Positions 1 through 61,856 of a stretch of 64,000 bases of DNA are shown here, in pieces; position 1 is the stretch's first letter; each line of letters begins with the position of its first letter. Position numbers and translations under genes: made by a program. Under the pieces are notes generated by a model, which did no database searches, was not told the DNA's origin, and saw only the letters and a program-made list of their open reading frames with translations. Origin of the DNA: Acholoe squamosa (lineage: Eukaryota > Annelida > Polychaeta > Phyllodocida > Polynoidae); contig OX439040.1 of assembly GCA_949317995.1 (NCBI GenBank), forward strand, positions 56,516,089 to 56,580,088, in the 5' to 3' direction.

Positions 1-308
1 CTTTGTCCTTTGATCTTGGCGTCTGAGTCACATGACCCCACATATATACCACCAGCATAGCATTATATGTGTGTGTGTGGAGGGGGGTAGCGACAGTTAC
101 CGGGTAGTTCCTCTTTATAACATGAAGGATTTTCTGCTTTGAGGTGCTCAACCTGCCAACACTAGAAATTATGATCATCCTGCAATTAGATGAGTGTTCT
201 GTATTTAGCTGTGAATGTGTCGATGTCAGTTGGCACTTTTCCAGTTCATTCAAGGGTCAAATCTATTTTGGGTACCATCTGATGTTCTTAATATGATGAT
301 TATACACA

Positions 309-518
309 CACCAAAGCATAGTAGGGCATCCCTAGCCCACTTAAAATGGTCTATTTCTCCTCTTTCCTATCCACTCTCATGTGTGTGGTGCACATATGTG
401 CAGGCACTGACAGAATCCCTCATGAAATTGTGTAATGTGGTTCTCGCCATTAATCTATCCTCAGCTGTTGAAATGGCCTTATACATCTATTACTCACTAA
501 CTCACTCACCAAAGCATA
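309..518 (+). repeat. SINE-like retroposon, copy 1, with target-site duplication
   Basis: The element spans about 321-506 and is similar over its whole length to copies at 62404-62588 and 63367-63546. Shared blocks include CCCTAG.CCACTTAAAA, GTGTG.TGCACATAT and CTATTACTCACT. It ends in an (ACTC)-rich tail. An exact 12-bp duplication, CACCAAAGCATA, flanks it at 309-320 and 507-518, as expected for target-primed reverse transcription. I see no RNA polymerase III boxes, so it could be a SINE or the 3' end of a truncated LINE. Confidence 0.75.
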
Positions 519-1451
519 ATGCTATTTTGGAGCTAGTGTAAAATTGTATTTCATTGTGCCGCTTGTCTCCCATATATACCCGGACGTGTGTGTGGCGGCA
601 CAACTACAAGGTCCAAGTACCCTGTGGTCTGGTACTCAGGTATCATTAGTTATGAACTCAGTGGCACGACGGGAGATCACTAATAAACTGCTGACCATGA
701 GTGTTAGCTGACGCCAGTGTGCCACTTGTAAGGGCCTGTCCACCATTGTTTCATGATACATGGCCATAGAACGCCCTGACTGGGAATGTAGCAGTGGAGA
801 ATAAAGTTATTGATGTATTACATGGGTTGGAGAGTGGGTGGGTGGGGAGTCGGGGGTCACCTCCTGTTTCTGTGAAGTGTCTGGGGGGTCCTGCTCTTCT
901 GGCAGTGTTTATTTTATTGTTTTCTGCCTCCTGGTGTCTTCAAAGGGACTGTGTGTTAATATTCCGAGCAGGGAAGAAAGAGACTTGAGGTAAACTCTAT
1001 GTGTGAGGTCATGGGCCTGTCCCACTGTATTTTGTACACATCGGAGGGGGGGGGGGGTACAGAGGTACGGTATGTGGTAGTTTGTACGTGCTGCTTTCTA
1101 CACTTGTGATCACATTCTCCTTTACAGTCAAACCTCTGCCTTAATTGTCGTAGTTTAGATCATGTTTTTGCCGCTGATCAAAACATTTTATGTAGTGAAA
1201 TTCAGGGTAAAATGAAACCAGTACAATTAATTTCAAAGCTGCTGATAATAAGGTTCAATAATAGTTGTGAAATACCAACGTTTGAGAACTAAAAATCCAG
1301 ATCATTTTTGGATCAGTAGCTTACCTCCCATGTGGCCTCCAAACCCCCTGACCCTAAATTGAAAATAGCATGTCGGGCGGAAATGTAATATTAGTCAACA
1401 AGCCCTCAAGGAGTTACACTTGGGTGTCTGTTGCCATGGAAACCAACCTTG

Positions 1452-1464
1452 AGGTCAGGGGTCA
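1452..1464 (+). promoter_or_regulatory. DR1-type nuclear-receptor site
   Basis: AGGTCAGGGGTCA is two AGGTCA-like half-sites with one base between them, the form bound by RXR/HNF4-type receptors. Two closer matches lie at 21199-21211 and 29498-29510. Binding is inferred. Confidence 0.35.
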
Positions 1465-3091
1465 CGGGTGGATTGCCCTGGGGCTAGCGGACAGACAGAA
1501 ACATGAGAAGGGGGCATACATTTCTGTGGCCGACTTTGTAGTGTGCTAAAAGAAAAGGGGGCGAGATCCCACTGTGAGGCTAGGGTCGAGGGAAAAACAA
1601 ATGTATGTTATTGTGTTGGTGGGTGCATTGCCCTTCAGCGTTACTATGATACGGTTACTATGACACTAATAGACTCTCTGGTCTCGGATGAGCCCTTTAT
1701 AGCAAACATATTTATCTAATCTAAAGCACACGAAGAAAAGATGAATAAGACAACCGACCAACAGTATGGAATTAACCACGAAAAATTACCAGTTCCTCTC
1801 TCGAGATGGAATTTGAGAAATAACAATTGGACAGAAGTTTGCCTCATCGGGGCAGTATTTACTATTTTAATCTGGGCATCAATGTAAGTTGGCCATATCG
1901 TCTATTTTGACTTATCGTATTAAACATAGCATCTTTTATTACCACACATCAGTATTCCACCAAGTACCTGTTACGTGTAGGAACATGGGGTGGGCTATGT
2001 ACCTGGTCGTCCCGTATATATCAGTCAGCAGATACAACATTTATGGACATATTTCATGGTTATAGACAGGTCCTGTGTTTGCATACAATGGTAGGGCGTG
2101 ATCACAGAGGTACACTGCCGAGCTTGTACCTGCAAAACCTGGTCTTGGGATGTGGTAAACAAAACTGGCAACAGGAGGTACTTTTTTTTTTTTATACCAA
2201 AATTAGAAAAAAAAGTGGGGGGGGGGGCTATTTTTAATACTCTGTTAGCTGGATATTTTAGCGTGGGGAGGTACAGCCTCAGAGATAATAAAAGGTTGTG
2301 CGATGGCGCTATGCTAAGGTATTAAAGAAAAGGAAAGTGGTTGTGGAAGGAGAGGGGGGGGGGTGAAGGTAGTGATACATACAGCCCCCATCTCAGTTAC
2401 TAGCAGGGACAACACACCTCAGGAGTGGCCCACTTTTTGTCAGATGAATGTTAGTACACAGAGTATAGGGACGTTCGTCCTAACCTCTGCATTCTGATAG
2501 CCTTGGAGATCTTACAACCCCATCTTCCCTAGTGCTCGCTCTACCTGGAGCTCACTCCTGCCAGTCCTAGTCTTCTTTAGAATAAACCCATCCATGTCTG
2601 TTGGCACAAATGAAAAAAAGACAAATGTTAAATTTATCTGTCTACACAAAGTCCTGCCCATGAGTTTCTGGTGCAGAAGAAGTTAAAGAACTGATAGGAT
2701 TGGACAGGCATACTTTAGAGACGAAGATGAATAGGATGGTGACATGAGAGGTAGACATTGCTGGTGGATGCTGCCCTCTCTGACCTTAGGGTGGCATCGT
2801 CTGACCTCTGGTCCGACCTCGTGAAGGCTACCTCCTCTCTTCCATACTCCACTAGGAAGGACAGTCACCAACATGGCACCCATAAAACAACACTATTAAT
2901 TAAGTATTAGTACGGCGAATACAAGTCCGCGCAGTGCATGAACAAATGTAGTGAGTACCGTGAGTACCCTAGATCATGTGAGTCCTGAAACCACTACCCT
3001 GATCATCACCAGTTCCCGATGTCTTCAGTACTCGCCCCCCTGCTGGTTCGGTCTAGACTCAGCGTCCGCCTCACACCCTTTGAGTCTGACC

Positions 3092-3106
3092 ATCAAAGAT
3101 GGCGGC
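3092..3106. promoter_or_regulatory. TCF/LEF core plus helper site
   Basis: ATCAAAG (3092-3098) is followed after two bases by GGCGGC (3101-3106). The overlapping AAGATGGCGGC also matches the YY1 consensus, so this pair is ambiguous. Confidence 0.45.
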
Positions 3107-6100: not shown

Positions 6101-7327
6101 GTTGCACTCCATGCACCACCCCATAATCTGCCTCCTGCTCCCCTGTGGTTGTCGACTTCTTTTCTGTTGTCGATAGCCTGTTTTGTTCTCAGTTTATTAC
6201 CCATGCCACTAGTTGGCCTACTGACTCTGCACAAACCTAGTGGTGACGCTGACACTACAGGAAATTGCGATATATTGAAAATTTCAGTAGAAATTACATG
6301 ATCATTGACAGGTGATAATTTCAAGCGTCAATCCGCATACGTCTATATACATGTACATACAGATCTAGATCTCTCTTTAACCAACGAGTATATCACAGCC
6401 TCTATATGTCATGTACGTTTGTTTGTAGATCGACGCCTGGAGCTTTTTATGTTGGGTAAAGTTATACCCATATACATTTGTATAAGCCAGCAATGTTAAC
6501 GACTCTCCCTGAGAGAAAGAAATCTCTGAATCATAAAATGGAAGCCTTGAGTTGCAAAGGGTGGATTTGGGACAATTGACAATACAGTATTATTGGGGTT
6601 GCTAGTACATACACTTGTTGTTAGCATGACTGGGTCTCATAAAAACAACTCTCGTCAACTTGTACTCTTGTTTTTCCAATGAGTGTGTTCTGGGTTACTA
6701 GAACACAGCATATAGTTCAAAGAAAAAACATGGATAAATTACTGAACTTAGCAAAGGGAGTGGTATTGCATAGTGTGTTAAAATCAGAAGCGTGTTTTAC
6801 TCAATTTTAAAAGAATCAAAAGTTGTATTTCGGGTTTAATGCATGATAAAATTATTGAATCTACATTGTTGAGTGATGTAATGTCTGGAAAGTCAGACGT
6901 GGTCAGTCAGTTAAACTGTCACACACTACTAGTACCCCACCCTCTGCTTTTGCCTCCCCGCACTGCCCGAAAAAGACTTCTTCCTGAATTAGACAATTGT
7001 CCTTGGTTTGCCCCATACCCTATAACCATGCAACACACCCGCCCACTCTCACCATTCTGCTCCTTTACTAAAGGAGAAACAACCTTTGGCCATCAGACCC
7101 AGAAGTTGGGAGGAGGAGCCTTTTGGGGGCCTTTCAAGTTGTGCCGCGGGTGATAGGGCCCTATTAATTACTGAAGGAGGACACCCATTTACCCATTTAT
7201 CGCTCACTATAGGGTCGTAGTGCTGGACGACAGTGCCACCTGGTTTGGGGGTCTTGTCGCTGGTTCCTTACGATGGTGCCCTGTGCACCTGTTGTCTCGG
7301 GGGCCATGTCCCGCCAGGACGGTAGAC

Positions 7328-7345
7328 ATCAAAGGCGCCGCCGCC
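7328..7345. promoter_or_regulatory. TCF/LEF core plus triple helper site
   Basis: ATCAAAG (7328-7334) is followed two bases later by GCCGCCGCC (7337-7345). On the minus strand this reads helper then CCTTTGATG, the full SCTTTGATS consensus. It is one of the best TCF-helper pairs in the window. Confidence 0.6.
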
Positions 7346-7987: not shown

Positions 7988-8014
7988 GGCGGCGGAACCA
8001 CGCCTTTCTTTGAT
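7988..8014. promoter_or_regulatory. TCF/LEF core plus helper site
   Basis: GGCGGC (7988-7993) precedes CTTTGAT (8008-8014) by 14 bases. A GGTGGCGCC block lies just upstream near 7969. Confidence 0.5.
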
Positions 8015-9269: not shown

Positions 9270-9410
9270 AGTATACCTACAAAATACGTCAACACGGATT
9301 AACCCTTACCATGTGTCGTACGCGCCTGTATCAGCTCAGGATAGTGAGCTGCAAAGTTTGTCCAGTGATGCCCTCACGGACGATACCATGTCCCTCACCG
9401 ACAGCAGTGT
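9270..9410 (+). CDS. axin: Axin exon: linker after the RGS domain
   Basis: Axin is the cytoplasmic scaffold that brings APC, GSK3, CK1 and beta-catenin together for beta-catenin degradation in Wnt signalling. The exon has a pyrimidine-rich acceptor ending in TTTTACAG and a donor GTAAGT. It reads one base, 46 codons, then two bases. The peptide contains RINPYHVSYAPVSAQDSELQ followed by SSDALTDDTMSLTDSS. This is the conserved stretch after the RGS domain in vertebrate Axins (NPYxV...DSExxSLSSDAxT...LTDSSVDG). The split Val codon (GT+C) joins perfectly to the exon at 37079, giving SSVDG as in vertebrates. The downstream intron is 27.7 kb. No preceding exon was found. The family match is strong, and the exact 5' splice edge is the only small doubt. 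Confidence 0.93.
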
Positions 9411-9847
9411 GTAAGTACCCACATTTAACATCTTCTTAATATACAGTGTGGTAAAGTCAACTTTTGACTCGCTTTTACCATGTTAATCACCATATACTTC
9501 CTTCTTTTGAAAAAAAAAAAATCCTGATGTGTTTTAAATCCATCTAACATTTGGCTGAATTCCAGCTTGCAGTTTCATGGCCAGATTGTAAGTTGGCTTT
9601 CATGTATTTCACATGTTCTGTTACATAGGTTTGGGTCAGAATGACATCTGAGCCTGTCGCTGATTTCGGGTGACATGAAGACATACTTACTTCTTTCTGT
9701 TACATACATACACAATCTTATCAACAATATAAAAGACGTTTCAGACAGAATTCACAAATATCTCTACCGGAATTAGAATAGATCTAGCTCTAGACACTTT
9801 ACCACAGGATGTGACGTCACGGCTCGTGGCAAAAGTTCCCTCAGAGA

Positions 9848-12568: not shown

Positions 12569-12591
12569 GCCGCCACCTGGACACTTCAAAG
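12569..12591. promoter_or_regulatory. helper site plus CTTTGAAG variant TCF core
   Basis: GCCGCC (12569-12574) is followed by CTTCAAAG (12584-12591). The same pairing with the CTTTGAAG variant recurs at 23961, 29456, 38748 and 52020. Confidence 0.4.
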
Positions 12592-15768: not shown

Positions 15769-15790
15769 GGCGGCGACACGAGGCTTTGAT
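15769..15790. promoter_or_regulatory. TCF/LEF core plus helper site
   Basis: GGCGGC (15769-15774) precedes GCTTTGATC (core 15784-15790) by nine bases. The overlapping CCACCAGGCGGCG is one mismatch from a CTCF core. Confidence 0.55.
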
Positions 15791-16036
15791 CTGTCTGCAG
15801 GTTGCCGGCGAGCACCTTGTTTTGTATCTGGACCCACTCAGATAACCAGCGGCCTTCTTCCGTCCGCCCACAGCCTGATGGGAACTTTATGCAAATTAGG
15901 GTACCTTTTGATGGCTGGTTACTGCCTTGTATGTATATATAGATAGACTGGTCCTTACAAGGTAAGGGGCTTTGGGATGGGATGAGGTAGGGGGTGCCTG
16001 GGGACTTTGTTAGGTTGGCTATGGGGGTAAAGGCCC

Positions 16037-20378: not shown

Positions 20379-20401
20379 GGCGGCCCGCGGTAGGCTTTGA
20401 T
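20379..20401. promoter_or_regulatory. TCF/LEF core plus helper site
   Basis: GGCGGC (20379-20384) precedes GCTTTGATG (core 20395-20401) by ten bases. A CTTCAAAG variant lies at 20342 and a further full core at 20098-20104. Confidence 0.55.
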
Positions 20402-21198
20402 GATAAGGCTGCCTAGGCCCAGATCACACCGCTTGTAAGAAGTCCTCCTATCCAGGTTAGGGTGAGTCCGCATAAAGGTATAGTCACCCAGACTGAAGAA
20501 CATGTACTATGTACAAATGTATTTTTTTTAATTTTTTTTAGAGTGAACATGGTATAGCAACGTTTTTTTTTTTTTATCATTTTTACTATGTACAAATTTA
20601 GTTCATAAATTACTGCCTACCTACCTATCGTAAGTCATAATGAGTGGATCAGCATAGCTGATCGATGCTGGCAAATAGAAGAATGAATAGGGTTGTCCGT
20701 GTAACCTATAGAAATGGGATAGTGAATGCCCCCCTCACCCTTAAGGATCCAGGTCCTATCTAATCCTGCTTAGGTTGTGCCTGGACCTGCTTTAGGCTTA
20801 ATTCCGTACTGCACAGGTCTCCACCCATTGGGTCTCAATGTCACCCAGACCAATGCCAACTGAAGCAGGTCAAAGGTTTAACCAACATTTGACAACAGGT
20901 AATGATAATAAAGTCCAGTGGGTAGACCCTACACTCAAATAGGCACATTGTGTGGAATATGTGTAGCCGGTCCCGTTAGACTTGAAGGTAATTGTGCCAT
21001 TCTATAGGTTGTTAACTTAGCCCAGAACGTATACCTTGGGGGGGGGGAGGTATGAAAGTGAGCTGGATTGGGGTTAACCTTGGAGTAAAGAATACATTAT
21101 TCCAAGGGAGGGATCAGATGGTTGACATCCTAACCAGTCACTACCAGTGCCCTGAGCAGGGCCATGGGCCGTTAACGGCCGGCGATTGGCTATTGACG

Positions 21199-23960: not shown

Positions 23961-23985
23961 GGCGGCTGGGCGCGGTCCTTTGAAG
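23961..23985. promoter_or_regulatory. helper site plus CTTTGAAG variant TCF core
   Basis: GGCGGC (23961-23966) precedes CTTTGAAG (23978-23985) by 11 bases. Confidence 0.4.
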
Positions 23986-34636: not shown

Positions 34637-35641
34637 CACCCGACAGCAGCGACTCCACACCCTACCCTCCCTCCTCCACCCCTCCACCCATATACTCCAC
34701 TCCATCCAGCATCACCTACACTAGACTAGCTCCAGTCTTCTGTATTAATATTTCAAGTATTTTAAAAGCAGTATTTCAGCGAGCACTACCATATCATGTT
34801 TTGAGCAATGTTGTACATATTCACTATAATCTCAGGAACAGGTTTACACAATGTAATGGTTGGTTAAGTTGTTATTTATTTTTATTTTTTTAGCTACATT
34901 CATCTAAATTGTAGTACGGAAGACTTCAACAAATCTATAGTATACCTATATAATCCCAGCAACCACCCACCCCCACCCCATTGCCTCACCAGAGGACACG
35001 ATAGTAGTACAGGGGGTCAGAGGCCTTAGGGTAGATCCACGGTAGAAAGCTCCCCTTTACCACATAGAAGGTTTGTAGGGGTGAACTGGGTTCTAAGTAA
35101 GAGGGCTGGATTTGGAGAATTGAATTTGGGCGTAGGTTACAAGGTTTGTGGCTTGGGGCATTTAGATGGGTAGATAAGTTGGGAGATACTGCGTGACCTT
35201 TATGTACCTTAGTTTAGGTCACAAGGAATATGCTCGCTATACATGTAACATATGGGAAGTACCAATGTGTATTCAATAGTGTGTGTTATACATTTGTGTG
35301 AATCGCTTTGCAACCCAGAGCAATGTTAACTCCTATGTCGTCTCAGTCTATTAGAAGGAACATTAATGATTAAAACAAAACGTTTTCGATGGATTTCTCT
35401 CCCCACCCACCCTCTCTGAGACGCTGGTCTTGGTTAGGGTCCTTCTTTCCTTCTCAACACCAGATGTTTCCCCTACCACTTTTACCTACACACAACTTTG
35501 ATCTTGACTCTTCCCATTTTACACAGGACACTGAGGTATGGTATGGGTGTGTCTCCTATCCCAACAGGTGACTGCAGTAAGGCTGCTTTCCCCTTAACAC
35601 ACCTGGCCAAAGATCAGCCTTTTTAACACACATGGGCGATG

Positions 35642-35681
35642 ATCAAAGGGCCCAGGTAATGCCGCCACCTCCAGGGCCGCC
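35642..35681. promoter_or_regulatory. TCF/LEF core plus two helper sites
   Basis: GATCAAAGG (core 35642-35648) is followed by GCCGCC at 35661-35666 and again at 35676-35681. On the minus strand this reads helper, helper, CCTTTGATC. Confidence 0.55.
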
Positions 35682-38161: not shown

Positions 38162-38188
38162 ATCAAAGAGGATCCAGCCACATCAAAG
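38162..38188. promoter_or_regulatory. paired TCF/LEF cores
   Basis: Two ATCAAAGAGGAT blocks begin at 38162 and 38182, 20 bp apart in the same orientation. That is two helical turns. GCCACCGCC, a near-helper sequence, lies at 38217. Confidence 0.5.
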
Positions 38189-38747: not shown

Positions 38748-38775
38748 GCCGCCAGGGGAGAAGCTGCCTTTGAAG
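38748..38775. promoter_or_regulatory. helper site plus CTTTGAAG variant TCF core
   Basis: GCCGCC (38748-38753) precedes CTTTGAAG (38768-38775) by 14 bases. A GCTTTGATC core follows at 38844. Confidence 0.4.
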
Positions 38776-40445
38776 TGGGGGCCTCATTTGCATGCGGCCA
38801 TTGTTGTTGTGCTGATGAGCGCGGGAAAGGTCAGCCTAGTTCGCTTTGATCCCACTAGGAGCGCTGCTGCCGTCCGTTTCAGCGGCCACGTGTAATTTCT
38901 CTGCTTCATTTCGTAATTGTCCTCGGCGCCTGGCAGATTTTAATATTGGGGAGGATTTAGATTGAATCTGTGGATCCCTATACCCCCCACTGGGAGCATT
39001 ATGCCTACTGCTCACAGCCTCACCAAGGTTTTAACGTAACCCCCTCAACCAATAATGAAATATCCCTGTGTGCTGGGGCGTGCACAATGGGATTAAGGGT
39101 TATTGGAAAAGGGAGAGAAATGGTGGAGGGGGGAGGGGTATTGTGACAGGAGTGATAGAATTTCGCATGAGGCTTTTGAAAAGATGATAATGTTGATGAA
39201 TTGAAAAGTGCTGCCGATCCCTCAAGTGAGTAGGTTTCGGGCCAGTGGATAGGTAGAGACTGGGGGGTATGGATTAGTTGGATGGATTTGGTGGTTGGAT
39301 ATGGCAGCAGGGTAGAAGAGAGTTAGCGCGGACAATCCTCTCAGATCGGAAAGACTTGGGAATTACATTCAAATCAGATTTATCCCTGACATGAGTTCGT
39401 GAGTAGTTCTACTTGGAAAAAGTGAACAAAAAGTTTCAGGGACAAAAAGAGCCGGGGGTTGGAGGGCAAGGAAAAACGTGTCATCTGTTCACCCTTTGAT
39501 GATTAGATTAAAACTGATCAACTCATTTGATACTCCTTATAGAATCCCTAATTCAGTATTATCAATCTTGATATGAATAATCTTGAAATTTGGCATATTG
39601 ATAACTTACCCATTGGAAAAATGAAAAATTTCTCGTGGTATTTTGACCTACTTTTCTAAGATCTAGAGAACGCAATATGTAGAGAAAAATCCAGTGTAAA
39701 TTTTGAATACTCATCTCTAGTGGAAATTGGAATTTTTGAGTTTTAATTTCTTCCTTTGTTCTAGCTCTAATAATATGACCATAACCTCAACACCACACCT
39801 GTCTCTGAGAATCTGTGTGTGTTGGTGGAGGTGGAGTGGGGGGGGGGGTAACTTAATTAGCCCTACTCCAAGTTGCAGGTGAGCAGCCTTTGATGAGGCT
39901 GGTGCCACCAGGTGAGAAGGTGGCGGACAGGTGGGGACTGGAGGATACAGCATATGGCTAATCAGTGTTAAAAAGTAGACAGATGACAGCATCACAGGCC
40001 AGCCGCCATTTACATGACCTCTACTTTTGAGTTCACAGGGCTGGGAGAGGTGTATTTGGTAATATTGAATGGATGGTTATGGTGGTATGACTGTTATTAG
40101 TGAGTATGTATTATAAAGTTTACTGCATGACAACCAAACTGTTCCTCCAGATGGCATCACTATGATACATTAGAAATTGACTATTTCTACCCTGGTGCAT
40201 TGACTCCGATTTGCCTGTACCATATTTCCCAACCTGTATAGATGCGAGCCTGGGAACTGGGACTGTATTTACAATTCTTTAATGTGAGGAGAAATATATT
40301 CCCTATTATTTTACCCTAGGAAGAGATGCTATTACAAGTATGCACAATGCTAATCAACCTTAAACTATGAAATATTTACTTGCATATTAAGATATCATCT
40401 TAGGCCTAGACCTGATAACTCAGAATGTGACATTGTATTTTACAG

Positions 40446-40589
40446 CGAACTGACCGGGCCCCCAAGGACCGGAATATCGCAGAGACCGAGCCGGCTAAGT
40501 TTGCAGCCATGCTCATTGAGCGCCTGGATAAGGTGAAGGATGAGCAGGACAAGATGAAGCGGATAGAGGACTCTATGCGGACGTTAGAG
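40446..40589 (+). CDS. axin: Axin exon: GSK3-binding helix
   Basis: The exon is exactly 48 codons, phase 0 at both ends, between TTTTACAG and GTGAGG. The peptide starts RTDRAPKDRN. It then carries TEPAKFAAMLIERLDKVKDE, the counterpart of the vertebrate Axin motif EPxxFAxxLIxRLExV. That amphipathic helix docks in the C-lobe groove of GSK3-beta, so this exon holds the kinase-recruiting step of the destruction complex. A charged coiled segment (DKMKRIEDSMRTLE) follows, as in vertebrates. An alternative transcript starting at the 45.7-kb exon would lack this piece. Confidence 0.96.
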
Positions 40590-43237
40590 GTGAGGATCTT
40601 ATCTGTAAAACCGTTATTTTTCATCTATGTCAATGTAATTTTACATGAAATTAATCAAGCATAAAGAATCAAGTTACGAGAGAAACTCTTTGTATCTTTT
40701 AAGGCATTATCATATTATCATATGATGTTTGAGGTCACATAAAACTTCAGTAATTAGAACGAAATTCCTAGTTCAAAGAGAATTATGACAAATTGAATTA
40801 TTTTCAAAGTTTGATGCACCCATAAAGCTTAATGTGTTGAACTGCAAGAGTTCAATGCTACAACAGTCGGACTGAGTACACTCTCCTCGTTGGTTCCAAT
40901 ACTCTCTCCAAGCTGCTTTTGTAAGCGTCTGTGATGTCGCTATTAAAAGCCAAGAGAAAATCCGCGCCTCACAAGTTGAAAAGGAATATTATATTATAAC
41001 AATGAATAATAGATCACAATCGCGTCGGCCCTTTTTATTCCTCAGTTGGAAGTCAAATGGAAAGGAGAACAGAAAATGTGCACTCTATGATTGTTAAAAG
41101 CAGCAGGCGGAGGCGGGGATGGCTGGGGCTAGGGTGGAACAGAGGAACTGCTGGAGTCCTGGCCCCTTTGAGATTAATTCAGCGAGAGAGAAGTCCTAGG
41201 AACTCTTGCCTCTGTGGTTGACAAAAAGTAGAAGGTACAAAGGGATTCGTAGGGCCTCCCCCTGTGTTATATATGTTATCCTAGAGCTGCCTTTAAGCCC
41301 TTGTTGTTACATTCTCTACCTTTTTCAGTAGGCTTCTCCTATTTTCCAGCCCCTCTTTTATTTTGGCTCTATCACCCCACCCCCATTTCGTGTCACTTCT
41401 AAAGGTGCTATTGATAAGTCTGTATTGTCTTACCCATGGTTGTGAAGTGCATCTATTATCGCTCATTGTCAAAGCTTTCTTGTCAGGCCGCTCGGAGGCG
41501 CACACGGCAGCGCCCCCATTGAAGAGGGCGACGAAACATGGCGCCATCCTCAGTAGATATTAGAGTGTAAATTTAGCTGTCTTTCTTACTAAAAGAACAC
41601 TACGAGGACTAAGAGATAGTGGGTGAAAAAAAAAACACAAACACAAATATACACAAGATCTCTCAGCGAACAAAAGATTTCAGAATAGATGTTACAGGGC
41701 TATAGCAACAAAGGGCAACCATGAGCAAATGTATTTGTCTTATACTTAGGTTTCAAAATGGAAAGGGGAAAAGGTGGACTATGCGCCTTTGAGAATTTCA
41801 TTAAGACTCATGGCAGTATGGTGTGCAACTTGTGCTATCGTGGCTCACAGGGAATAACCAAAGATGTGCTCCGACATGGACCCTCCATCCATCCCTTAGC
41901 CCTCACCTCCCACTTCCTCTCTTCCTCCCCTGTCCCCCAGCCTCGTGCCTTAGTTTGGGCCCCTTTTGATGTTCACATTTATGTGGCGGCGACATTATCA
42001 GCTTTCAGCCTCCTTTTCACCCCGGCGCGCCACTGGATCGTAGTCGCACAACTTTATGAAACGTGATCGAGTTGATCTCGACTCTGCAGTCCGTTTAATC
42101 TAGCCTTGGCTTTCCCCGTCGCCCGGTGCTGTCCGTTTGAGTCGGGCCGAGGTCCATTAGGATAGCCGGTTATGGATAGCCAGACGCGCCGAGTTCACAT
42201 GGAGAGACATCATCAATAGGTGTGTTCACACGCAGCAATTGGCATGGCCTACAGGAGGCCAGTTCACACATATTAACTTGGACGATGATCACATGGCCTG
42301 GCTTCATACATGTTCCTGTGGCCTTGGATCACCACTGTATTGGACACTTTGGTCAGTCACTGAACATTGTGAGTAGTGTACAACTAAATGTACAAGGGAG
42401 GGATCTTGGAAGGATCTACTAATATGATGTCACTTGACTCTGATGGCCTGTTGATATAACCTAATGTTAAACCTCAAAGTTTGCCTTCTGGAAGATCTAC
42501 TTATTGCAGTGCATCCCAAATCCCATGTACTACAAGGCTTCTACTACACCATAGCTACTACTACCGTCGTCAAAGCTATAGGTTAACTCGCCTCAACTTG
42601 GCCCTGCCGTGGAATAACGAGAGGCGATGGGAATGTCGGCCGCTAGATGAAAGCAGTATTGCCCAGGGGATGTCGTTTTGAAGGCGGATTGATGGCAGTA
42701 TTTTCATGCGCTGAAGATGCAAATAGGGCCAGTCATTAGAAGGAAGACGGCTCCTTTACCCCGTCTTCTCTTTTCTCCTGCAATTAGAGGGCAGCCTGGT
42801 CGCCACCATAGGAAAGATATGGGACTCTGTGATGAAGAGGTGACTGAAGGGCTGAGGTGGGTCTTGGGGCTGTGTGTGTGGGGGGGGGGGGTGGGGGTGG
42901 ATAAGCTGGCGGGTTTTTGTGTTAATCCAACAAGATCTGACGTCTCCAGTAGGACTACAAAGGGGGTCGGCCGCGTACAGACTGCTTTGTAGTGAGCCGC
43001 ACCCACTGGAGGAAGATCGGAACAGAAGAAAGCCGACTACAGGAGGAGGGTGGGGTGAGACTTGGGGGGGAGGGGTGTAGAAGCAAAGGGGGTCTGACAG
43101 AGAGAGGCTCACAGAGGGGCCGACAAAAAGAGCAAAGGCAAAACGAGAGAGAGCACTCGGACAGAAAATGCATGTTTGTGTGAGGGAGAGGGATTTGGAG
43201 GGGGAAGTCAAAAGAGTTTGGCCGTGAGCCCCCTCAC

Positions 43238-46796: not shown

Positions 46797-48299
46797 AGAA
46801 GGACGGGGTGGGCGTGGTAGTTGGTCTGAGCGCCATATAGGTGGGGCCCTTTAGGTGGAGCAACACAAGAGGTAGAGACTTAGTCCTAAGTGGGTGTGGG
46901 TGTGATATGGTCACCTCCAACTCAGCTACTACAGTGGATCCACCACCAGCCCAGCAGTAGGAGCAGACCGACTTCTTGAACCTCTTCTCATGTGCTCCAC
47001 AGTGTGTCTTGTTCCATGCAGAACCCGACCACCAGTAGTCTCCATCATGTACTCTTACACGGGTACTTTAACTTCAGACATGAGGTGCTGGAAAGTGGCT
47101 CAAAGACTACTGGAGGTACATACTCATTGGACATTGATTTGGTTCATGTGTTAGGTGCAACTTATCACACATTTCTTGATCTAAATGGTTAAGTAGGCTG
47201 GGCCAGGGAGCTATCCAGTTTACCCTTAGTAGTATATGCAAAGTGACTTTGAATACATACTGGATCAATCACAGAAAAATAGACGCGTGTTAATTGACTT
47301 CATTTGTAAAACACTTAGGATCCTTATGGGAGGAAAATTACTTTTTTTTTTGGGTGGGGGGGGGGGGCAATTTTAAGACTAATCTTAATACACACATTTT
47401 TGGGAGCGGCCGATGAATTATGGACTTTCCAATTCTTAATCTATAAGCACGTTACTGACTTAGTACCTAAGGCCGACCCATTAGTAGAAGGCAGACTTTG
47501 TAAGGGGATTACTCAATAGCGCTACTGGTGGAAACTGGCTGTTAACTTTATTTTCACCTGTCAGATGTCAGATTCATAAAGGTGATGCAACCTTCTTACA
47601 CAACCCCCGCTGTGGCAGGTATACTCAGAGGGTCAGTGCGACTATAGGGGCGTGCTTGGGTGGGTATTAGTGTCAGTTATAGAGCGGCCCAAGGCCAGGT
47701 GTGAAATCCCCCCTCAGCCCGGCCTCAGCAGCAGCAACAGTTGGTGCACAGGTAGCCGAGCCTTGGGGGGGGGGGGGTAGGTGGTAGGTAGGGTGGTGTG
47801 TAAGGTAGGCTTGGGTCAGTCAGTCATTCAGGACAGGAGAATACAGAAGTGCCCTGCAGGTCTCTGTGTTGATGTACATAACGGTCACCAGTACTCAGTC
47901 AGTCGTCTTACTCAGGCCCAGAAGGCAGAAACCATGCCTTCACTAGATACCTCCCAGTCTTGGCTCTCCAAGAAGCTAAGTTGTCTACATGTAGGTTTTC
48001 ATGCATAAAGTTCTACACCTCATTAGTCTTGTCACTGGTAACATCAGGGAGGTATACACCTTTGTGAAACCTCTTTGGTAACATACAAGGAAATTGTCTG
48101 TTGTAGGTGTCTCTTTGTTTCTATTTCTTCTTTCAGGCACATGTGGGAATGCATCCAGAAGCGTCAACAGATATGCTGTTGAAACTGTAGATGGCTCTTA
48201 TCAACGATCAACAAGGATCTTTCTAAAAATAGTTTCGCAAAATTACCAGATGAAATATTCTTGCTTTGTGTCTAACATTTTGCCTTTACTATGTTGCAG

Positions 48300-49171
48300 C
48301 AAATGACGGACGAGGAGCCTGACCTCAACAAGTCTACAGCGTCCACCCACAACAAGTCCGTGTCCTCCATGATGGCGCTAATGGCCACGGCCATGGCCGA
48401 GAAGGAGCGGGAGGAGGACGAGAACGCCCAGAGCATCCTGGAGGAGCACTGCTCCAGAATCTGGGACAGCTCAGCTGGTCAAACACCGAGTCGCTCACCT
48501 GGCCGACACTCACCTGAGCGTCTTGGTGACAGGAGTTTTGCCTCCAGGAGCCGGTTAGCTGGACCATCCCCCAATGTTTCTGGTTTGTTAGCATCTCTTT
48601 CCTCCCACAAGCCTTACCACAAACGGACCAAGGCCGAGAAGCAGCTCGATACGAGCAGCTCGAGCCATTTAGCCTCCATGTTGTCATTTGATAGCGGCAT
48701 GGGCGCGGACGATAAGTCTTCAGCCATAGCGGCCGGAAGTAGCGGTGCTGCACCGGTTGCCCCCTCACTCTCCTCCACCTCCTCGCTGAGGCATGCAGAG
48801 TTGGAAAGCCGGCTGGCCGGAAACGGAAGTAGTAGTAGTAAACATGTGCATCACCATCACCACCACCACCATATCAGCAGTAAGGAAGCCAAGATGGCGG
48901 CCCTGAACGCCAAACAGCTCATGGAGCTGGAGGCGCAGAGCCGCAGTGCCGCCGCGCACCATTACCGCACAGCCGGAAATACCAGTGCCGGAGACATTTC
49001 CTCAATCAGGGACTCGTTCTCGCGGAGCTACGACGAGAGTTTAAGTCGTGGCCGGTCGCGAGACGCTAAACGGTCCATGTCCAATGTGAAGAAGGTGTCG
49101 GACACAAGTAGTAACCTGGATAGTGGAGTTAGTGTACGGTACGAACCCACGGGCAACCCTGCCAACGAAAA
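48300..49171 (+). CDS. axin: Axin large exon: beta-catenin-binding helix, phospho-cluster, histidine run
   Basis: The exon has 290 codons plus two bases, between ATGTTGCAG and AA|GTGAGT. Exon residues 41-55 (ENAQSILEEHCSRIW) match the vertebrate helix ENPxxILDEHxxRV, which lies in the groove of beta-catenin armadillo repeats 3-4. Residues 62-72 (TPSRSPGRHSP) match the following Ser/Thr-Pro cluster phosphorylated by GSK3. Ser-rich, low-complexity sequence follows. Then comes a histidine run (V then eight H, about 48847-48873) with SSKEAKMAALNAKQLMELEA, which aligns with the KHVHHH...KEQxEAEA block of Axin. Arg/Ser-rich sequence ends the exon. The split Lys codon joins in phase to 54376. It is far longer than the other exons, and both the full-length and the proposed short transcript would use it. 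Confidence 0.95.
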
Positions 49172-49245
49172 GTGAGTACCATTTGGTCATCTCTTTCTTT
49201 TGAACCTGTCTGATGTTTTATACCTCTAATCTGTAGTCAAACAGT

Positions 49246-51827: not shown

Positions 51828-51990
51828 TAGAAAATGCACACACAAGACTACACGGCAGTGACCCATAGGGAACCTTATACCTTCTATGGACATTTGGGGA
51901 ACAGACCTTCCCCCCCACCTCACCCCCTCAGTTCAGTTCGTCGTCCGCCGTCCCGCCGCGCCGCGCCTCTCATGTCGCCGCGCCGCACGT

Positions 51991-52034
51991 GCCGCCGCCC
52001 TTTGATCCACCGCGGGCCACTTTGAAGCGCCGCC
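51991..52034. promoter_or_regulatory. dense TCF/helper composite in a CpG-rich block
   Basis: GCCGCCGCC (51991-51999) abuts CTTTGATC (core 52000-52006). CTTTGAAG begins at 52020 and GCCGCC lies at 52029-52034. Two TCF-type cores and two helper sites thus lie within 44 bp, in a CpG-rich stretch that starts near 51935. It is the most compact composite in the window. Confidence 0.6.
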
Positions 52035-53425: not shown

Positions 53426-53637
53426 ATCAAAGGTGTTGTTCTGGAGCATTCTCTTTACTTCCCCTTTGATATCTCCCCTCCCGCTGCTTTGGAGAGGGAA
53501 GGGGTCCCTCACTAGCCTTACTCAGGTCAAAAGAGGGTGGAGATAGGAGTCGAGGAGGTATGATCGAGTTTTGGCACAGGACCTATACTGGTATATAGTC
53601 CATTTTGCCGCCCACACTCTACTCAATAAGATCAAAG
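53426..53637. promoter_or_regulatory. three TCF/LEF cores
   Basis: ATCAAAG at 53426-53432, CTTTGAT at 53464-53470 and ATCAAAG at 53631-53637 fall within 212 bp. The first and third are full 9-mer matches. Confidence 0.45.
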
Positions 53638-54513: not shown

Positions 54514-56496
54514 GTCAGTTATCATTTCATATATAAAAATTTATGGAATTCAAGAAAAAGTAGTTTCCTATATTAGAAATCCTCATTTGGTCCTCTCCAA
54601 AGAGGTGGGTAAAATAACAGCAATGTATCCGTTGATTGAAAGGTAAGTAGTATATGACATTGGGAGATTGTGTGTGGTAAGTACTCTGGGCCTCCACCAA
54701 CAAGCAAAGGCCCTCCGTAAAACAGTGTTAAAGTGGTGATAGGTATTTGGCCATTACCGGTATATTGCCCCATGACTACCTCTTTCACCCCCCGACTGCC
54801 ATCCTACTACAGCCCCTACATACCTATTCCTCCACTCACACCTACCCTGTATGTACTCAGAGGGTGAGCTGCTCTGTGAGCTGCTCTTTCTGCCTCAGTT
54901 CTGGGCCCTGATCACACAACTCCTCACCCAGCCAGGCCTTGTGTGGCCCTGTGTGCGCCACCTTTTCATCTGGAGGCTGGGGTGGGTGGGAGCGGGAGGG
55001 CGGTCAGTAGCGGCGGGCGGCGTCAATATGACGGGGCCGCAAAACGCATCAGGGCCAAATTCACATGGTGGCCGGTCAAAGGCAGCACCCCCGGCGGACA
55101 TGATAGCCCTCTTTGATGCCCTCTGTTTAGGGAGCGGGACGGGGATAGCGGAGCGGTGTGTGGGAGGGGTGTTCCTGTGTGTGTGTCTGTGTTGAGGAGA
55201 AAAGAGGGATAGGGGCCATCCCTAATTGGGTTAAATTTTCTCGGGCTAGTCATCAGATGGAATAGAGCCTTCCCACTGGGCGATTGGGGGAGGGGGAGGG
55301 TAAGGGTGTGTTTGTTCGTGAGGGTGATGTATAGGGTGTTGGATAGGATAAACCTCGATAGGAATGTACGATCAGTACATGCCTGAAAAACCAGGTAGAC
55401 CAAGACCCTACTGAGAAGTAGAATGTATATAAAGGGATGTGATACGTTCACACGTCCCACACACCGATCTCCCACACCCGCAGTTCTAAGTGCTAATTCC
55501 CTTTAATGCTGAGTCAAAGAAGCTAATTTTAATTACCCTGCCTCAGGCGAGGTGGGTTGTTGGGGTGACTGATTATGGGCAGATCAACGGCTTCTCCACT
55601 GATCAGTTTTGGAGGCTTCCCTTCTCCCCATCCAATTCAACACCTAACCAATACCACCCTCCCATGGGCCATCTTTGGACACTTCAGGCTTCCATAGACA
55701 ACTGTCACTGAGAACTCTTAGAGAGATGGTAGAAAAGAGCAGTCAACATTCAACCTGATTTCCAACACCCCTCCCACCATGTCTATGTATACCTTGTACT
55801 CTGTGTCCTTGGGTGATGAAAGAACCAACCTTCGTCTCCTCCAAAAGAACCCCTCTCCCACCCCTCCCCATCCTATGAGACCAGGCCCCTCCTCCCCTCT
55901 GTCCCCGTGCCGATCACACTTTATGATGCCACATTCAGTAGGGTACTTTGAGCGTCTCCACTCCTTGACATAAGTCCTTAAGCCACACAGCCCCTTTACC
56001 TTCATACCCCCTCCAACCTCCCACATCCTTTCAAGTCGGTGCCGCACAGAAGGCCCGTCTTGACTATCTCCTGCTTTTCTCGCTGCCTCATTGTAAAGCA
56101 AAGCACGCCTTTTCCCAGGCGGCTTCAAAGAGATCCTGCCCTGGCCACATCACGGCCAAATCTGGGCCGGCAAAAGGCAAAATTAATACTTGTGTAGAGG
56201 GGCGATGATTGTGAATCCTCAAAGTGCAGTCAGCAACCCCCTCCCCCACCCAACACCACCGCCACACATCCACTAGACGATTCTCTCTCTCCCCCTCCTC
56301 TCTATATATGGCCTTGTACTTGTGACTTGAAGGGGCATACCATGGAAGACCCGGAGTGCATCTCCACTAAAACCCAGCAGCCTATATAGGCCATATTAAC
56401 CGTGGGATTGCATCCATCCCCTGATATTCTGGAATTGTAGATGTCCAATTGCCATAGAATTGTCCTTGTACTTATATGTAAATTCCTAACTTGCAG
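54514..56496 (+). other. axin: axin intron
   Basis: No exon is seen. It has two GAGCTGCTC motifs only 12 bp apart (54866-54874, 54878-54886). A TCF core lies at 55111-55117 next to a GGTCAAAGG variant at 55074-55082. Simple G-rich tracts are also present. Confidence 0.6.
54866..54886. promoter_or_regulatory. tandem GAGCTGCTC pair
   Basis: The two identical 9-mers start 12 bp apart and each is preceded by GT. A tandem arrangement in otherwise unrelated sequence suggests a protein-binding motif rather than a repeat family. Confidence 0.4.
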
Positions 56497-56730
56497 AGCT
56501 AGTAAAAAGCCGGTGCAGTACAACGCGAGTCGCTCAGGGTCGTTGGACCGCTCGTTGCATCCTATGATGTCGTCCGAGTACCTCAACCTGCAGGGTCACC
56601 AGGTGCTACCTGCCCAACCCATGGTACAGGACCCCTCCATGCCCCTCCTCACGCCGCCCAACCCCATGGACCAACTGGAGGAAGTCAAGCGGCGACTGGA
56701 GGACGAGTGCAAAGCCAAGATGCGCACAAG
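56497..56730 (+). CDS. axin: Axin exon: QDPxMPxxxPPNPxxQLEE segment
   Basis: The exon is 1 + 231 + 2 bases between CTTGCAG and AAG|GTGAGC. It carries MVQDPSMPLLTPPNPMDQLE followed by EVKRRLEDECKAKMRT. This corresponds to the vertebrate stretch (I/T)QDPxMPPxxxPNxLxQLEEAxRRLEE, a conserved proline-rich motif plus a charged helix just before the DIX linker. The upstream half (SRSGSLDRSLHPMMSSEYLN) is Ser-rich and less conserved. Junction phases on both sides fit. In vertebrate studies the region between the beta-catenin-binding and DIX domains binds several partners. I assign no specific partner from sequence. Confidence 0.95.
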
Positions 56731-57701: not shown

Positions 57702-57939
57702 GTGAGTTCAAAACTGTTTATTTAGATTCATGTTAAGAACGTTTATCTCCTTGATATAATAGCCATGTCAGTAAAGAATATGAAGTTTATCGCATATAGC
57801 AAGAGAATATAGAATTCAAAAGGGCGGCCACAGGTAACAATGAATCATTTATACCGGATATGTAAAGCGGGAAGATGGAGAGAAAAAAAAGTGAAAGTGT
57901 AAAACAATCTAAGTTATTGGCTTTCTTCCTCCTGAACAG

Positions 57940-58116
57940 CATTAAAAAGACGGTACGGCGACCGTCGACGTCTGCGCCGACGACGCCTGGCAGTGAGGTG
58001 ACGGTTGTGGGCTACCAACTTCCGGGTGACGATATCCCGTACAGAACCACCATTCCAGGCCGCGGTGTTACCCTAGGGCAATTCAAGCAGAGCATCACCA
58101 AACGGGGCAACTTCAG
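57940..58116 (+). CDS. axin: Axin exon: first half of the DIX domain
   Basis: The exon is 1 + 174 + 2 bases between CCTGAACAG and TTCAG|GTATGT. After a basic linker (IKKTVRRPSTSAPTTPGSE) comes VTVVGYQLPGDDIPYRTTIP, then GRGVTLGQFKQSITKRGNF. These match the DIX signature VxYxxxGExIPYR...GxxxTLGxFKxxLxKKGxYR. DIX is a ubiquitin-like domain that polymerises head to tail with itself and with Dishevelled. The second half (RYYFK...FEE) must lie in a later exon. I did not find it by 64000, so the domain is split and the gene is incomplete at the 3' side of the window. Confidence 0.97.
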
Positions 58117-58804
58117 GTATGTCTATTTCTATAGAGTGTGATGGTAAAAATCCATTTCTAACTATAAAGTATTGTATTCAGGACTATGGTCTAAAAGTTA
58201 TCATTATAGAAGTACATGTAAAAGATATGTCACCTTCAATGGAGAAAACAAGTCAGTTAAACGTTTAATGCTCCAATCATCCTCTTTATAACTGCAAAGT
58301 TGGATAAGGAAGTAGAAGTTATATCCAAGATCCCCATTTGCCAACATACCAGGGCCTGGAGTGGGAGGGGTTTTAGGTATCTAGGTTGGGTAGTAGGTAA
58401 CACTACACATAGCTCTTCTCTGATCTCACCCAGACCCTCTCTCCCATACACCCCCCCCCCCCGGCCCTACTTCTCTTCCACCCTTTGCTCCTTTACTGTC
58501 TCCCAGATACCTAGATTAAGCCACAGCTGGATTGTCTTAGTAGCAATTGAGCAGCTCACTCTCCTACTCACTATAGGTCCCATTGCTCTTTCCCTCTGTC
58601 TCACTCACACATCCTGTTGAGGTAGGATTGCTGCTCCCCCTCCGCCCCTTTCCCACCCCTACCTCAATCCGCTCCGACTAATTGGGAGGGTCTCAAACAG
58701 ATAGGGCTGGCAGTTAGAGATAATCTTGGCTAAATTCGGCACCAGGAGAGGGTCAGGCACGATAGGAGGTCTAGGTGCCAGCATAGAGTAGTATCAGTGT
58801 AGAG

Positions 58805-58819
58805 GGCGGCACCTTTGAT
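58805..58819. promoter_or_regulatory. TCF/LEF core plus helper site
   Basis: GGCGGC (58805-58810) precedes CCTTTGATG (core 58813-58819) with only two bases between helper and core. This mirrors the order and tight spacing at 7328-7345 on the other strand. Confidence 0.6.
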
Positions 58820-59943
58820 GTTGGTGACATCAGAGGGGCAGGGAGGAGGCTGGGTACCTGGGCCAGGTAAGAGAAGGAAGCCCTGCGGCCGTGTAGGTGA
58901 CTGATGCCACGGTTACCTGTGGCCTTGTGTTCCCACTTTCTATAGTAGGCACCCCCTGAATGGCCTGATCCCTCCACATACCATACCATGTCTCCCTCTC
59001 TCATCTCATGTCATTAAAAGCGGCTACTATTCCATTGAACTTGTGTATCACTATGGTCCATCTGTCATAGATAAGTACAGCGTAAAAGGCAGGGAGTTTG
59101 AGATTTTCTTAGAAACTAGACTGGAATTCTTTCAAATCACCTTTCTTTGATAAACCAAATGTTGAACATCAAGGCCAGTCAAGTTTGTCAGAAGAGGAGA
59201 TCAAGGCTGTAAATTTCATTTGAAACACTCCCTGCCATTCCACCCCCAACTCCAGCCCGAGACGAGAGAGTATTGCAAATTTTTGCTTCTCTGGATCCCC
59301 AAAAACTGGTACCCTTAGGGCGGCGCCGCTGGGAACCAGCATCTCCCGGGCGCCTGCCGTCACTTCCGGTCTAGTCACGTGGTGGTTATGAGTTCCGGTC
59401 TGTTGATCTGGGGGAACCTGCCCCTGGCCTGAGGTAGGGGCGGGAGTGTGTCTGGGTTCTCCCTGGGTGGGAGGGTCCGACCTCTGCCCTGGAGGGGATG
59501 CAGAACGGTCTCATTATGAGAGGGCCTCCCTTCACTACATCACTGTCTTGTGTTTGAGCATGTTACTGAGTTAGTGAGGTTGTTCATGTACAGGAGGACG
59601 TCATGGGGATGTAGCTTGATATACGTTGACTGTAATGAAATGAAAAAATGGTCACAAAGTCTTTAGAAGTAAATATGGATATAGAAGTGCGGGCATGTTT
59701 TAAAGTGAGAAAGAAGATTTACTAATATGTGTGTGGACATCTCGGCCCGATGTGACTATTTAGGTATATACATATATATCGTTAAGATTATATCAATTAG
59801 GACATCAAAGATGTCTGTATGTAGCCCCAGGTGAGGCTACCTACTGTGAGTACCAGACTTTATAGGTGTACTTTGCAGGGAGGAGGGGGTGATGCTGTTA
59901 GCATGTTATGATACCTGTAGAATTGTGCCCCCAGCACGACCAC

Positions 59944-59975
59944 ATCAAAGGTACCCATGCTGATCAAAGGGCGGC
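59944..59975. promoter_or_regulatory. two TCF/LEF cores plus abutting helper site
   Basis: CATCAAAGG (core 59944-59950) and GATCAAAGG (core 59963-59969) are 19 bp apart, both full consensus. The second abuts GGCGGC (59970-59975). Confidence 0.6.
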
Positions 59976-60419
59976 CCCCAAAGGTCGGCTCGTCCAACCA
60001 TTGGCCACTGTGGCCACTCTTTGAGTCAGTCACCCTGGGGGTGTTTGTATATATAGACGTAGACTCATGCTAAGGTATATATGTGCATATGTCTACAGGG
60101 TACATTAAACCTGGCCAGCCCATGATACACTCATCTATCTATATGTAACAAATACCATCCCAGTAGACAATGAAAAAAAAAAAACATTGACTGACTGAGG
60201 CAGACTCGGCAGCAATCACTTTTTAAAGCTTTACTTGGGATCTAAGTCCCTTAAGTGAGCTTGGCAATCTGAGCATCTCCCATGACGGTATCAATGTCCA
60301 TAAACTTCGCTTCCCTAGCAGTATCTATACACACCGTCAAGGTGTAAAATGATCAAAGGCATTGCCAGAAACACTCTCACAGCACAGGCTTAGTCACCAA
60401 CGGCCACACCAGAGGCCTA

Positions 60420-60667
60420 TGACCTCCATCATGACCCCTGATGACCCGACGTTTGACCTTGTCCTTTGTAGTTGACCTTGGCTGCCCAGAGTCTGACCTA
60501 TGGTGCTTTTCACTTGTCCCTGCCGTGTCCTGGACCATTCAGAGGTACACACGGCGGCACCAGCCGAGAGTGCTGGCCACAAAAGGGTGATGGATTTGAA
60601 AATGTCGCTAGTTTCTTCCCCTTGCAGTGACCTCTAGGCATTTCTCCTTTTCCTCGACTGACCTTGA
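60420..60667 (-). promoter_or_regulatory. cluster of eight nuclear-receptor half-sites
   Basis: TGACC(T/C) occurs at 60420, 60432, 60442, 60454, 60473, 60494, 60628 and 60659, all in the same orientation (AGGTCA on the minus strand). Three are TGACCTTG, the extended half-site TCAAGGTCA-type used by ERR, FTZ-F1 and ROR class receptors. Confidence 0.45.
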
Positions 60668-61797
60668 ATAAATGGCCGTCGCCCTAACCTTATCACCAAC
60701 GTGAGGTCACTCACCAGTGGGCTCACCAGGTTACCATAGAAACGCCCCTTTTGTTGGTGTTTATTCCAGCCTAATTGATCCCACAACAAGTGATCGTAAG
60801 GGGTGGGCAAAGTGGAAACATTGGGGGTGCAAAGTGATAGAATACCACAACAGTCATGTGGACAAGATTCAGAGTTCTCGGTCTGAATTGGCCTTGACAG
60901 GTGCCAAGGTGTATCTCGTGTGTCATTGTTTTAGCGTGGAGGAGGAAGATATATTGGTTACAAACAGTAGCCTATCCTGTATATTAGTCAGATCTTATAA
61001 TGGCTACCCCAAGAAGCATTGAGAACGAAGCATCTTTGCCCTTAGTCACCCATCTCTAAATCCCAGTCCCCCCCAGACAGGATTGACCCCAGTTCGCGAG
61101 GATACCTGGTTAGTGGGGTGGGGTGGCAGGGTAGTTTAGGGTGGGTAGATGGAGATTTGTCCAAAGGCTGGATAGAGTTAGGTCTGATAGGCTCGATAAC
61201 GAGCAGACATGGAGTCTAAGTGAATGTGACAAGCGCCTAACCCCTCTTACAAACCCTTATCTCCCCCTCCTACTTCAACCTTTGGGCTGTGTACAGGGCC
61301 TTTAGCCCACACAGGATGGTTGCAGAACAAGTGTTTCCGAATACACTCAGGGTAAATCGAAAAGGGTTCTCGATCAATATTACAAGAGCATGCACAGGTA
61401 CCCAAAGAGAAAGATTCCATCCGTTGGTCACAAATGAGGACTGTGAAATATGCCATCAATGTTACCAAATGCAAGCAGAATGTGACCGAAGACTACAAAA
61501 AGACGGATCTCTTCACGGATCCCATGTCCGTCTTTAGACTAGGAGGCACTTACTTGAGCTCGTTGGTTAACTTTAACACATGAAAGACTTCTCAGGGGCC
61601 CTTAGTACCGTGAAGGAGACTGTGTGTGTGTGTGGGGGGGGGGGGTTCTGACCATAGCCCCCTCACACTCATACACACCCTAAATCGGCCTCACCCGTGG
61701 CCAGCCCTGAGATCACAGCCCGGGCCCCCTGTAATAAGCCGAGTCGCTGGTTGCCGGCACCACCAGTGGATCTCCCCCGTGACAGGCCGGTGACACG

Positions 61798-61856
61798 CTT
61801 TGATCATCCTGTGTCCTTCAGGCCGCCTTGGATCTCTGATCCTTTGGTGCTTTGAT
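61798..61856. promoter_or_regulatory. two TCF/LEF cores flanking a helper site
   Basis: GCTTTGATC (core 61798-61804), GCCGCC (61822-61827) and GCTTTGATC (core 61850-61856) lie within 59 bp. Both cores are identical 9-mers. Confidence 0.55.

Follow-up and report, generated by a model that had tools for sequence, protein, structure and literature searches.

A high density of candidate TCF/C-clamp sites across axin, a probable Wnt feedback target, in the polynoid annelid Acholoe squamosa

We analyzed a 64,000-nucleotide stretch of DNA from Acholoe squamosa (assembly GCA_949317995.1, contig OX439040.1, positions 56,516,089 to 56,580,088; here C6:56516089-56580088, hereafter "the window"), which lies within the axin gene. 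The gene carries a large excess of the TCF core word CTTTGAT in a TCF-type sequence context, some of the cores are paired with GC-rich Helper motifs, the TCF gene of the same genome encodes C-clamp sequence, and the window ranks first in the genome for one class of core-Helper pair. On this evidence, axin is probably a feedback target that is directly and heavily wired to TCF/C-clamp through distributed, partly bipartite inputs. Wnt feedback through axin is textbook knowledge in vertebrates, where axin is a direct target, and the locus described here is a variant of that feedback and not a new kind of system. To our knowledge, the cis-regulation of axin outside the vertebrates is poorly known.

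TCF-type cores across the axin gene

Exons encoding an RGS domain, a β-catenin-binding motif, and a DIX domain lie on the same strand and in the same order over ∼77 kb (window position about -11.4 to 65.5 kb). By its predicted protein, the gene that carries the sites is axin, as a sequence-only reading of the window had proposed. The predicted exons are as follows.

Window position -11422, plus strand: RGS exon (putative axin); Pfam E value, 9e-27; best PDB match, axin
9298..9432, plus strand: axin exon, region after RGS (INPYHV...SELQSLSSDALTDDTMSLTDSSV); tblastn with a human AXIN1 query, E value, 1e-5
40440..40592, plus strand: axin exon, weak match; tblastn E value, 0.011
48276..49175, plus strand: axin exon with the β-catenin-binding motif; Pfam PF08833, E value, 1e-15
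56498..56728, plus strand: axin exon; tblastn E value, 1e-6, with no Pfam match
57995..58138, plus strand: axin exon, first half of DIX; Pfam PF00778 (DIX halves, E values 7e-13 and 2e-11)
Window position 65423-65548, beyond the window, plus strand: axin exon, second half of DIX; Pfam PF00778 (the same two E values)

The window is thus mostly intron, and the coding exons identified in it contain none of the 55 cores described below. Between axin exons, at 45632-46333, there is also a 233-amino-acid open frame that is asparagine rich and has no significant Pfam match; it is perhaps a lineage-specific axin exon.

An exact count found 55 occurrences of CTTTGAT/ATCAAAG in the window (28 on the plus strand and 27 on the minus strand; the first at 8 and the last at 61850-61856). 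The S-flanked core, SCTTTGATS (S, C or G), occurred 28 times (15 plus and 13 minus). The sequence-only reading had counted about 51 and about 29, respectively. As a yardstick, we used the 1.481 Gb of the same genome in 63 contigs, with the same word reversed as the control. Genome-wide, CTTTGAT was found 358,721 times (reversed word, 202,127), or 15.5 times per 64 kb, and SCTTTGATS 62,780 times (reversed control, 29,620), or 2.7 times per 64 kb. The expected number of CTTTGAT per window was thus 15.5 from genome frequency, compared with 9.3 from base composition and 11.3 from a second-order model. Since CTTTGAT is 1.8- to 2.1-fold more common than its mirror everywhere, a random model with equal bases overstates how surprising the cores are. 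The claimed excess of the plain core therefore stands, but at 3.5-fold over the genome and not 6-fold (Poisson P = 6e-15), and that of the S-flanked core is 10-fold (P = 3e-19). The S-flanked share of CTTTGAT was 51% in the window and 17.5% genome-wide (P = 2e-8).

The window exceeds not only the genome mean but also 12 kinase-exon stretches of 5 kb (60 kb in total), which held 12 cores and 5 SCTTTGATS. The first 100 entries for SCTTTGATS, which span 2.99 Mb of C1, reach at most 7 in any 64 kb. The 77.1-kb axin gene contained 63 cores and 30 SCTTTGATS, and the 88.5 kb upstream of it contained 27 and 1. The spacing of the 63 cores across the gene was indistinguishable from uniform (P = 0.21 and 0.24), so that micro-clustering was rejected and "distributed" is a fair description. 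The cores, all exact word matches, start at the following window positions; three close pairs of cores are given after them.

Plus strand (CTTTGAT): 8, 3861, 8008, 12404, 14466, 14596, 15784, 16037, 20395, 24326, 25604, 25874, 27013, 27954, 33328, 34630, 35496, 36825, 38844, 39494, 39888, 52000, 53464, 55111, 58813, 59145, 61798, 61850
Minus strand (ATCAAAG): 3092, 3417, 5420, 7328, 10185, 11175, 18043, 18100, 18848, 20098, 21374, 23588, 30645, 31265, 32458, 32518, 35642, 38162, 38182, 46497, 52199, 53426, 53631, 59804, 59944, 59963, 60352
38162..38188, minus strand: two cores 20 bp apart, same orientation
59944..59969, minus strand: two cores 19 bp apart, same orientation
53426..53470, both strands: two cores 38 bp apart on opposite strands

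We compared CTTTGAT in the gene with 209 permuted words, some of which overlap CTTTGAT itself. Its count of 63 stood against a mean of 10.2 and a maximum of 32, and its S-flanked count of 30 against a mean of 2.0 and a maximum of 8. Among the 16 S-flanked CTTTGNN words, CTTTGAT (30) and CTTTGAA (16) were outstanding, and the next was CTTTGTA (8); the pattern is CTTTGWWS in so far as the sixth base is A. S-flanked CTTTGTT was not raised (only 4), and a Sox or other HMG factor was rejected as the source of the signal. The core context was C-CTTTGAT-S-W, with C at position -1 in 25, S at +7 in 46, and W at +8 in 44 of the 55 cores, and with weak signal beyond. The sequence tests that were tried (permuted words, CTTTGNN words, and flanking bases) agree with the sequence-only reading that the cores are candidate TCF-type sites.

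A regional property could raise many words without any special role in Wnt signaling, for example if the domain is GC rich, poor in repeats, or open in its chromatin. The GC content of the gene is indeed higher (0.464) than that of its flanks (0.410 and 0.417), many GC-rich and simple words are also raised in the gene, and the DNA downstream of the gene is enriched in cores as well (see below). However, permuted words of equal composition stay lower, S-flanked or not, and the one-mismatch neighbors of CTTTGAT other than CTTTGAA reach at most 11 S-flanked occurrences, compared with 30. Composition as the cause was rejected by the permuted words, by the near-miss words, by the reversed word (none of its 19 sites had a Helper partner), and by random S-flanked positions. 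We regard the regional explanation as already disfavored and quite improbable.

Two further words were raised within 75 bp of cores between -11.5 and 65.6 kb: ACCTGG/CCAGGT (21, with 5.5 expected) and CAGGTA (14, with 5.1 expected). By their motif, these are possible sites of a Snail/ZEB-type cofactor.

Helper motifs and the C-clamp

Invertebrate TCF prefers a two-part form of site, in which an HMG core is accompanied by a Helper. GCCGCC-type words were among the most overrepresented words of the window. In published work, the Helper motif to which the TCF C-clamp binds is GCCGCC (PMC4267635; PMC4154663). Helper sites and C-clamp had been missed by the sequence-only reading, and the pairing of Helpers with the cores strengthens its case.

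Of the gene's 63 cores, 13 had GCCGCC no more than 20 bp away, as did 58 of 2,134 occurrences of permuted words. Within 50 bp of cores, 17 Helpers lay on the 5' side and 5 on the 3' side, a one-sidedness that also argues against a regional property. For the arrangement of pairs, we used the classes of the fly work. Akimbo (AK), whose definition we inferred from the text of the fly paper (PMC4154663), has the Helper upstream of the core on the opposite strand, and Rewind (RW) has it upstream on the same strand; the other classes are Fast-Forward (FF) and KK. When CTTTGAA is included (97 CTTTGAW cores in the gene), AK pairs were present at 8 cores. Random S-flanked positions gave an expectation of 0.8, and among 397 sites of near-miss words there was 1 such pair; the remaining pairs at cores were 5 RW, 2 FF, and 1 KK. 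Altogether, 16 of the 97 were paired with a Helper, 14 of them in the window, and the base 3' of the core was C or G in all 16. The pairs in the window, found by pattern match, are as follows.

7327..7345, minus strand: AK pair
7988..8014, plus strand: AK pair; the base before the core is not S
15769..15791, plus strand: AK pair
20379..20402, plus strand: AK pair
23961..23984, plus strand: AK pair with a CTTTGAA core
35641..35666, minus strand: AK pair
58805..58820, plus strand: AK pair
3092..3106, minus strand: RW pair
38748..38774, plus strand: RW pair with a CTTTGAA core
51991..52034, plus strand: compact 44-bp module of two overlapping Helpers, CTTTGATC, CTTTGAAG, and a Helper (RW plus FF pair); the RW pair is also in the genome list
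56118..56130, minus strand: FF pair with a CTTTGAA core, Helper abutting
59963..59975, minus strand: RW pair, Helper abutting the core
12569..12591, minus strand: KK pair with a CTTTGAA core

We consider the 14 Helper-paired cores of the window, and not all 55, to be the strongest candidates for function. Alternatively, axin might be an ordinary multienhancer Wnt target, in which only a few sites, mainly the Helper-paired ones, work as enhancers, and the others stem from composition, enhancer turnover, or weak decoys. We put this at a little under an even chance. It fits the small share of Helper-paired cores, the GC-richer DNA in which cores lie (local GC content, 0.518, compared with 0.464 for the gene), and the core-poor intervals at 39.9 to 46.5 and 46.5 to 52.0 kb. 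It does not fit the S/W context, which across all 55 cores exceeds what the paired cores alone could give, or the way in which the 63 cores are spaced along the gene, which is indistinguishable from uniform.

At C6:21.325-21.335 Mb, the TCF gene contains exons for an HMG box and, near them, the frame CRARFGLDQQSQWCKPCR, which by its residues is the first part of a C-clamp. The last part was not found within the TCF stretch read. Pfam PF08347 gave no TCF match, and the gene was found by protein query instead. In this gene, two adjoining exons at C6:21334934-21335308 each carry an N-terminal HMG-box half; they may be spliced in a mutually exclusive manner and so give two DNA-binding versions of the protein.

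Core-Helper pairs in the genome

We ranked pairs across the genome, completely for AK and RW and over the first 100 of 219 places for FF (C1 to C6:66.7 Mb). The AK pattern, GGCGGCN{0,13}SCTTTGATS, had 97 matches in 1.48 Gb, 9 of which were copies of one repeat, leaving 88. The window holds 5 of these 88, and every other 64 kb holds at most 1; 0.04 would be expected from its 28 SCTTTGATS if its higher Helper density is ignored. Of 68 RW pairs genome-wide, 1 was in the window. The FF pattern was found 219 times, compared with 39 for its reversed control. The gap limit of the patterns was chosen after the window had been viewed; results for TCF, Notum, and homeobox genes played no part in that choice.

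The repeat among the AK matches shows that a dispersed family can carry such a pair, and a family with CTTTGAT might have seeded the axin locus. The sequence-only reading had held that the sites lie in unrelated sequence, and this was upheld: none of the 55 site contexts had a second copy within 264 kb at an E value of 1e-3; the cores thus do not stem from a local repeat, and no base outside the TCF motif is strongly conserved. In addition, no two of the window's five genome-listed AK pairs are the same, and none matches the nine-copy repeat. A repeat origin is disfavored locally, over the 264 kb compared, and we hold it to be extremely improbable.

On C1 to C6:66.7 Mb, the pairs of the AK and RW classes and those FF pairs that were listed comprise 186 cores. 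Their densest cluster is axin, with 6 in 64 kb and 8 in 300 kb; the next is the TCF locus, with 3 in 64 kb and 6 in 284 kb. In 37 of 1,000 uniform simulations, the densest 64 kb reached 3, a number that no run exceeded; for 300 kb, no run exceeded 4. Thus, the 64-kb count of TCF is unremarkable by itself, and its 300-kb count is remarkable. Notum, located at C3:18498930-18512753 with a human sequence as the query, has a listed RW pair 4 kb upstream and an FF pair 32 kb upstream. Six HMG-Helper pairs lie within 0.68 Mb at C4:55735907-56416210, overlapping homeodomain matches at 55724576, 56129959, and 56357340. Each of these matches is 9 bases (3 residues) longer than the matched profile stretch; the cluster is probably of the TALE class, judging from this length, and perhaps Iroquois type and a Wnt target. 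More generally, of 253 listed pairs, 19 had a homeobox match within 100 kb (3.5 expected) and 1 had a kinase match within that distance (3.4 expected); by class, the pairs near homeobox matches were 11 of 88 AK, 2 of 65 RW, and 6 of 100 FF. By inspection, there was no AK or RW pair in the homeobox-rich region C14:35.2-37.0 Mb.

C13:40958770-41029073 contains one AK and one RW pair, near which there are two Sox-like HMG-box matches (40976831 and 41074954). The Nkd part of a chimeric query had no match, and its RING part had only matches of unclear identity. PF18382, taken as a ZNRF3 profile, was rejected because it is a formin domain.

Wnt feedback through axin

In the mechanism that we propose, the HMG box of TCF would bind many intronic sites (CCTTTGATSW) over ∼77 kb, and at the 16 Helper-paired cores the C-clamp would also bind the adjacent Helper, with binding strongest where core and Helper are paired. 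Wnt would stabilize β-catenin, and the TCF sites, used additively, would then raise axin transcription. More axin would rebuild the destruction complex and β-catenin would fall, a negative feedback read at many places in the gene.

For vertebrate Axin2, published work concerns the promoter and a small number of elements in introns. Like Axin2/conductin, the gene studied here is an axin gene with intronic TCF sites that, from its sequence, is expected to be Wnt induced and to restrain β-catenin; unlike Axin2, it has dozens of sites over ∼77 kb. In a reporter assay, an intronic region of AXIN2 that has one core and Helper sites was active in a C-clamp-dependent manner (PMC4267635). Recognition of Helpers by the C-clamp is used in Drosophila and Caenorhabditis elegans (PMC5464219; PMC3916239). 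The Helper sites of POP-1 in C. elegans share this recognition, and the text consulted describes no comparable locus-wide density. In Drosophila, TCF/Pangolin recognizes an HMG core with a GCCGCCR Helper, and the AK and FF arrangements were bound best (PMC4154663). As in the fly, 26 of the first 100 listed FF pairs had a gap of 2 to 3 after S, which is FF0 to FF1 by our conversion. In contrast to the fly, 16 of these 100 had a gap of 13 (several of them repeat-like), the listed AK pairs did not peak at 6, the optimum in the fly (gaps 5 to 7, 3 to 5 of 88), and several pairs are concentrated in one gene. In the five genome-listed AK pairs of the window, the gaps before S were 1, 1, 8, 9, and 11. 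In the annelid Platynereis, Tcf itself may be a Wnt target (PMC5996498), which fits the cluster of pairs at the TCF locus here. Among the open-license matches listed, we found no report of TCF-site density over mollusc axin or of Helper sites in lophotrochozoans, which does not show that none exists.

Several results weigh against a gene-wide, directly wired feedback target. The S-flanked share was also high in the kinase stretches (5 of 12, a small sample). The 98.4 kb downstream of the gene held 54 cores and 15 SCTTTGATS (9.8 per 64 kb), and the enrichment is therefore not strictly one of the gene body; within the gene, 40.6 to 48.3 kb is nearly empty, with 1 core in 7.7 kb. The description of the whole gene body as a distributed domain, made in the sequence-only reading, thus holds for the spacing of the cores but not for these two regions. 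Matching for local GC lifts the expected number of Helpers within 20 bp of cores to 5.4, compared with 13 observed, which weakens the pairing. The window contains two FF pairs with CTTTGAA and none with S-flanked CTTTGATS, although FF is the class enriched genome-wide. AK is barely above its reversed control genome-wide (97 compared with 73), RW is below its control (68 compared with 256), and a preferred AK spacing of 1 to 3 was rejected (26 of 88 at gaps 1 to 3 and 29 of 88 at 11 to 13). Because the gap limit was set after the window had been seen, the P values of the window itself are optimistic; those for homeobox genes are optimistic as well, since pairs within one cluster are not independent, and RW was not enriched there (2 of 65, with 0.9 expected). 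By eye, the 46 Wnt-ligand matches had no listed AK or RW pair, and on C1 to C6 no FF pair, within 100 kb, and Wnt-ligand genes were rejected as pair-rich loci. Finally, axin in Platynereis at 5 to 7 days is reported to respond mildly to two Wnt inhibitors and not to a GSK3 inhibitor, although a strong effect is reported for a later stage (PMC5996498).

The continuation of the enrichment downstream of axin would also fit if the sites served enhancers of a neighboring gene, or they might serve mainly for repression by TCF without Wnt, given that TCFs repress the same targets when there is no signal (PMC3916239). We consider these two possibilities, taken together, unlikely. If, as we favor, axin itself is the target, its feedback would be wired by way of many inputs spread along the gene. 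A more far-reaching reading, which we offer tentatively and think somewhat doubtful, is that axin acts as a gene-wide Wnt dosimeter, in which dozens of plain and bipartite inputs, including the densest AK cluster of the genome, would give graded feedback. The two-part grammar (FF 0 to 1 genome-wide, AK at axin) would then mark Wnt targets, including TCF, Notum, and the TALE-homeobox cluster, and be readable from sequence in a nonmodel animal. The locus, if real, would suggest that sequence alone is enough to detect, in a large nonmodel genome, the C-clamp Helper code known from fly and worm. Candidate Wnt targets for testing would then be axin, TCF, Notum, the cluster of three homeodomains, and others.

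Two other features of the locus were observed. The word GAGCAGCTC occurs 16 times in the window, compared with ∼0.3 expected from the second-order model, and 12 of the 16 are concentrated at 44001-60000 around the 3' axin exons. A long AGGTAGGT simple repeat lies in the intron upstream of the window, from position -3284 to about -2830.

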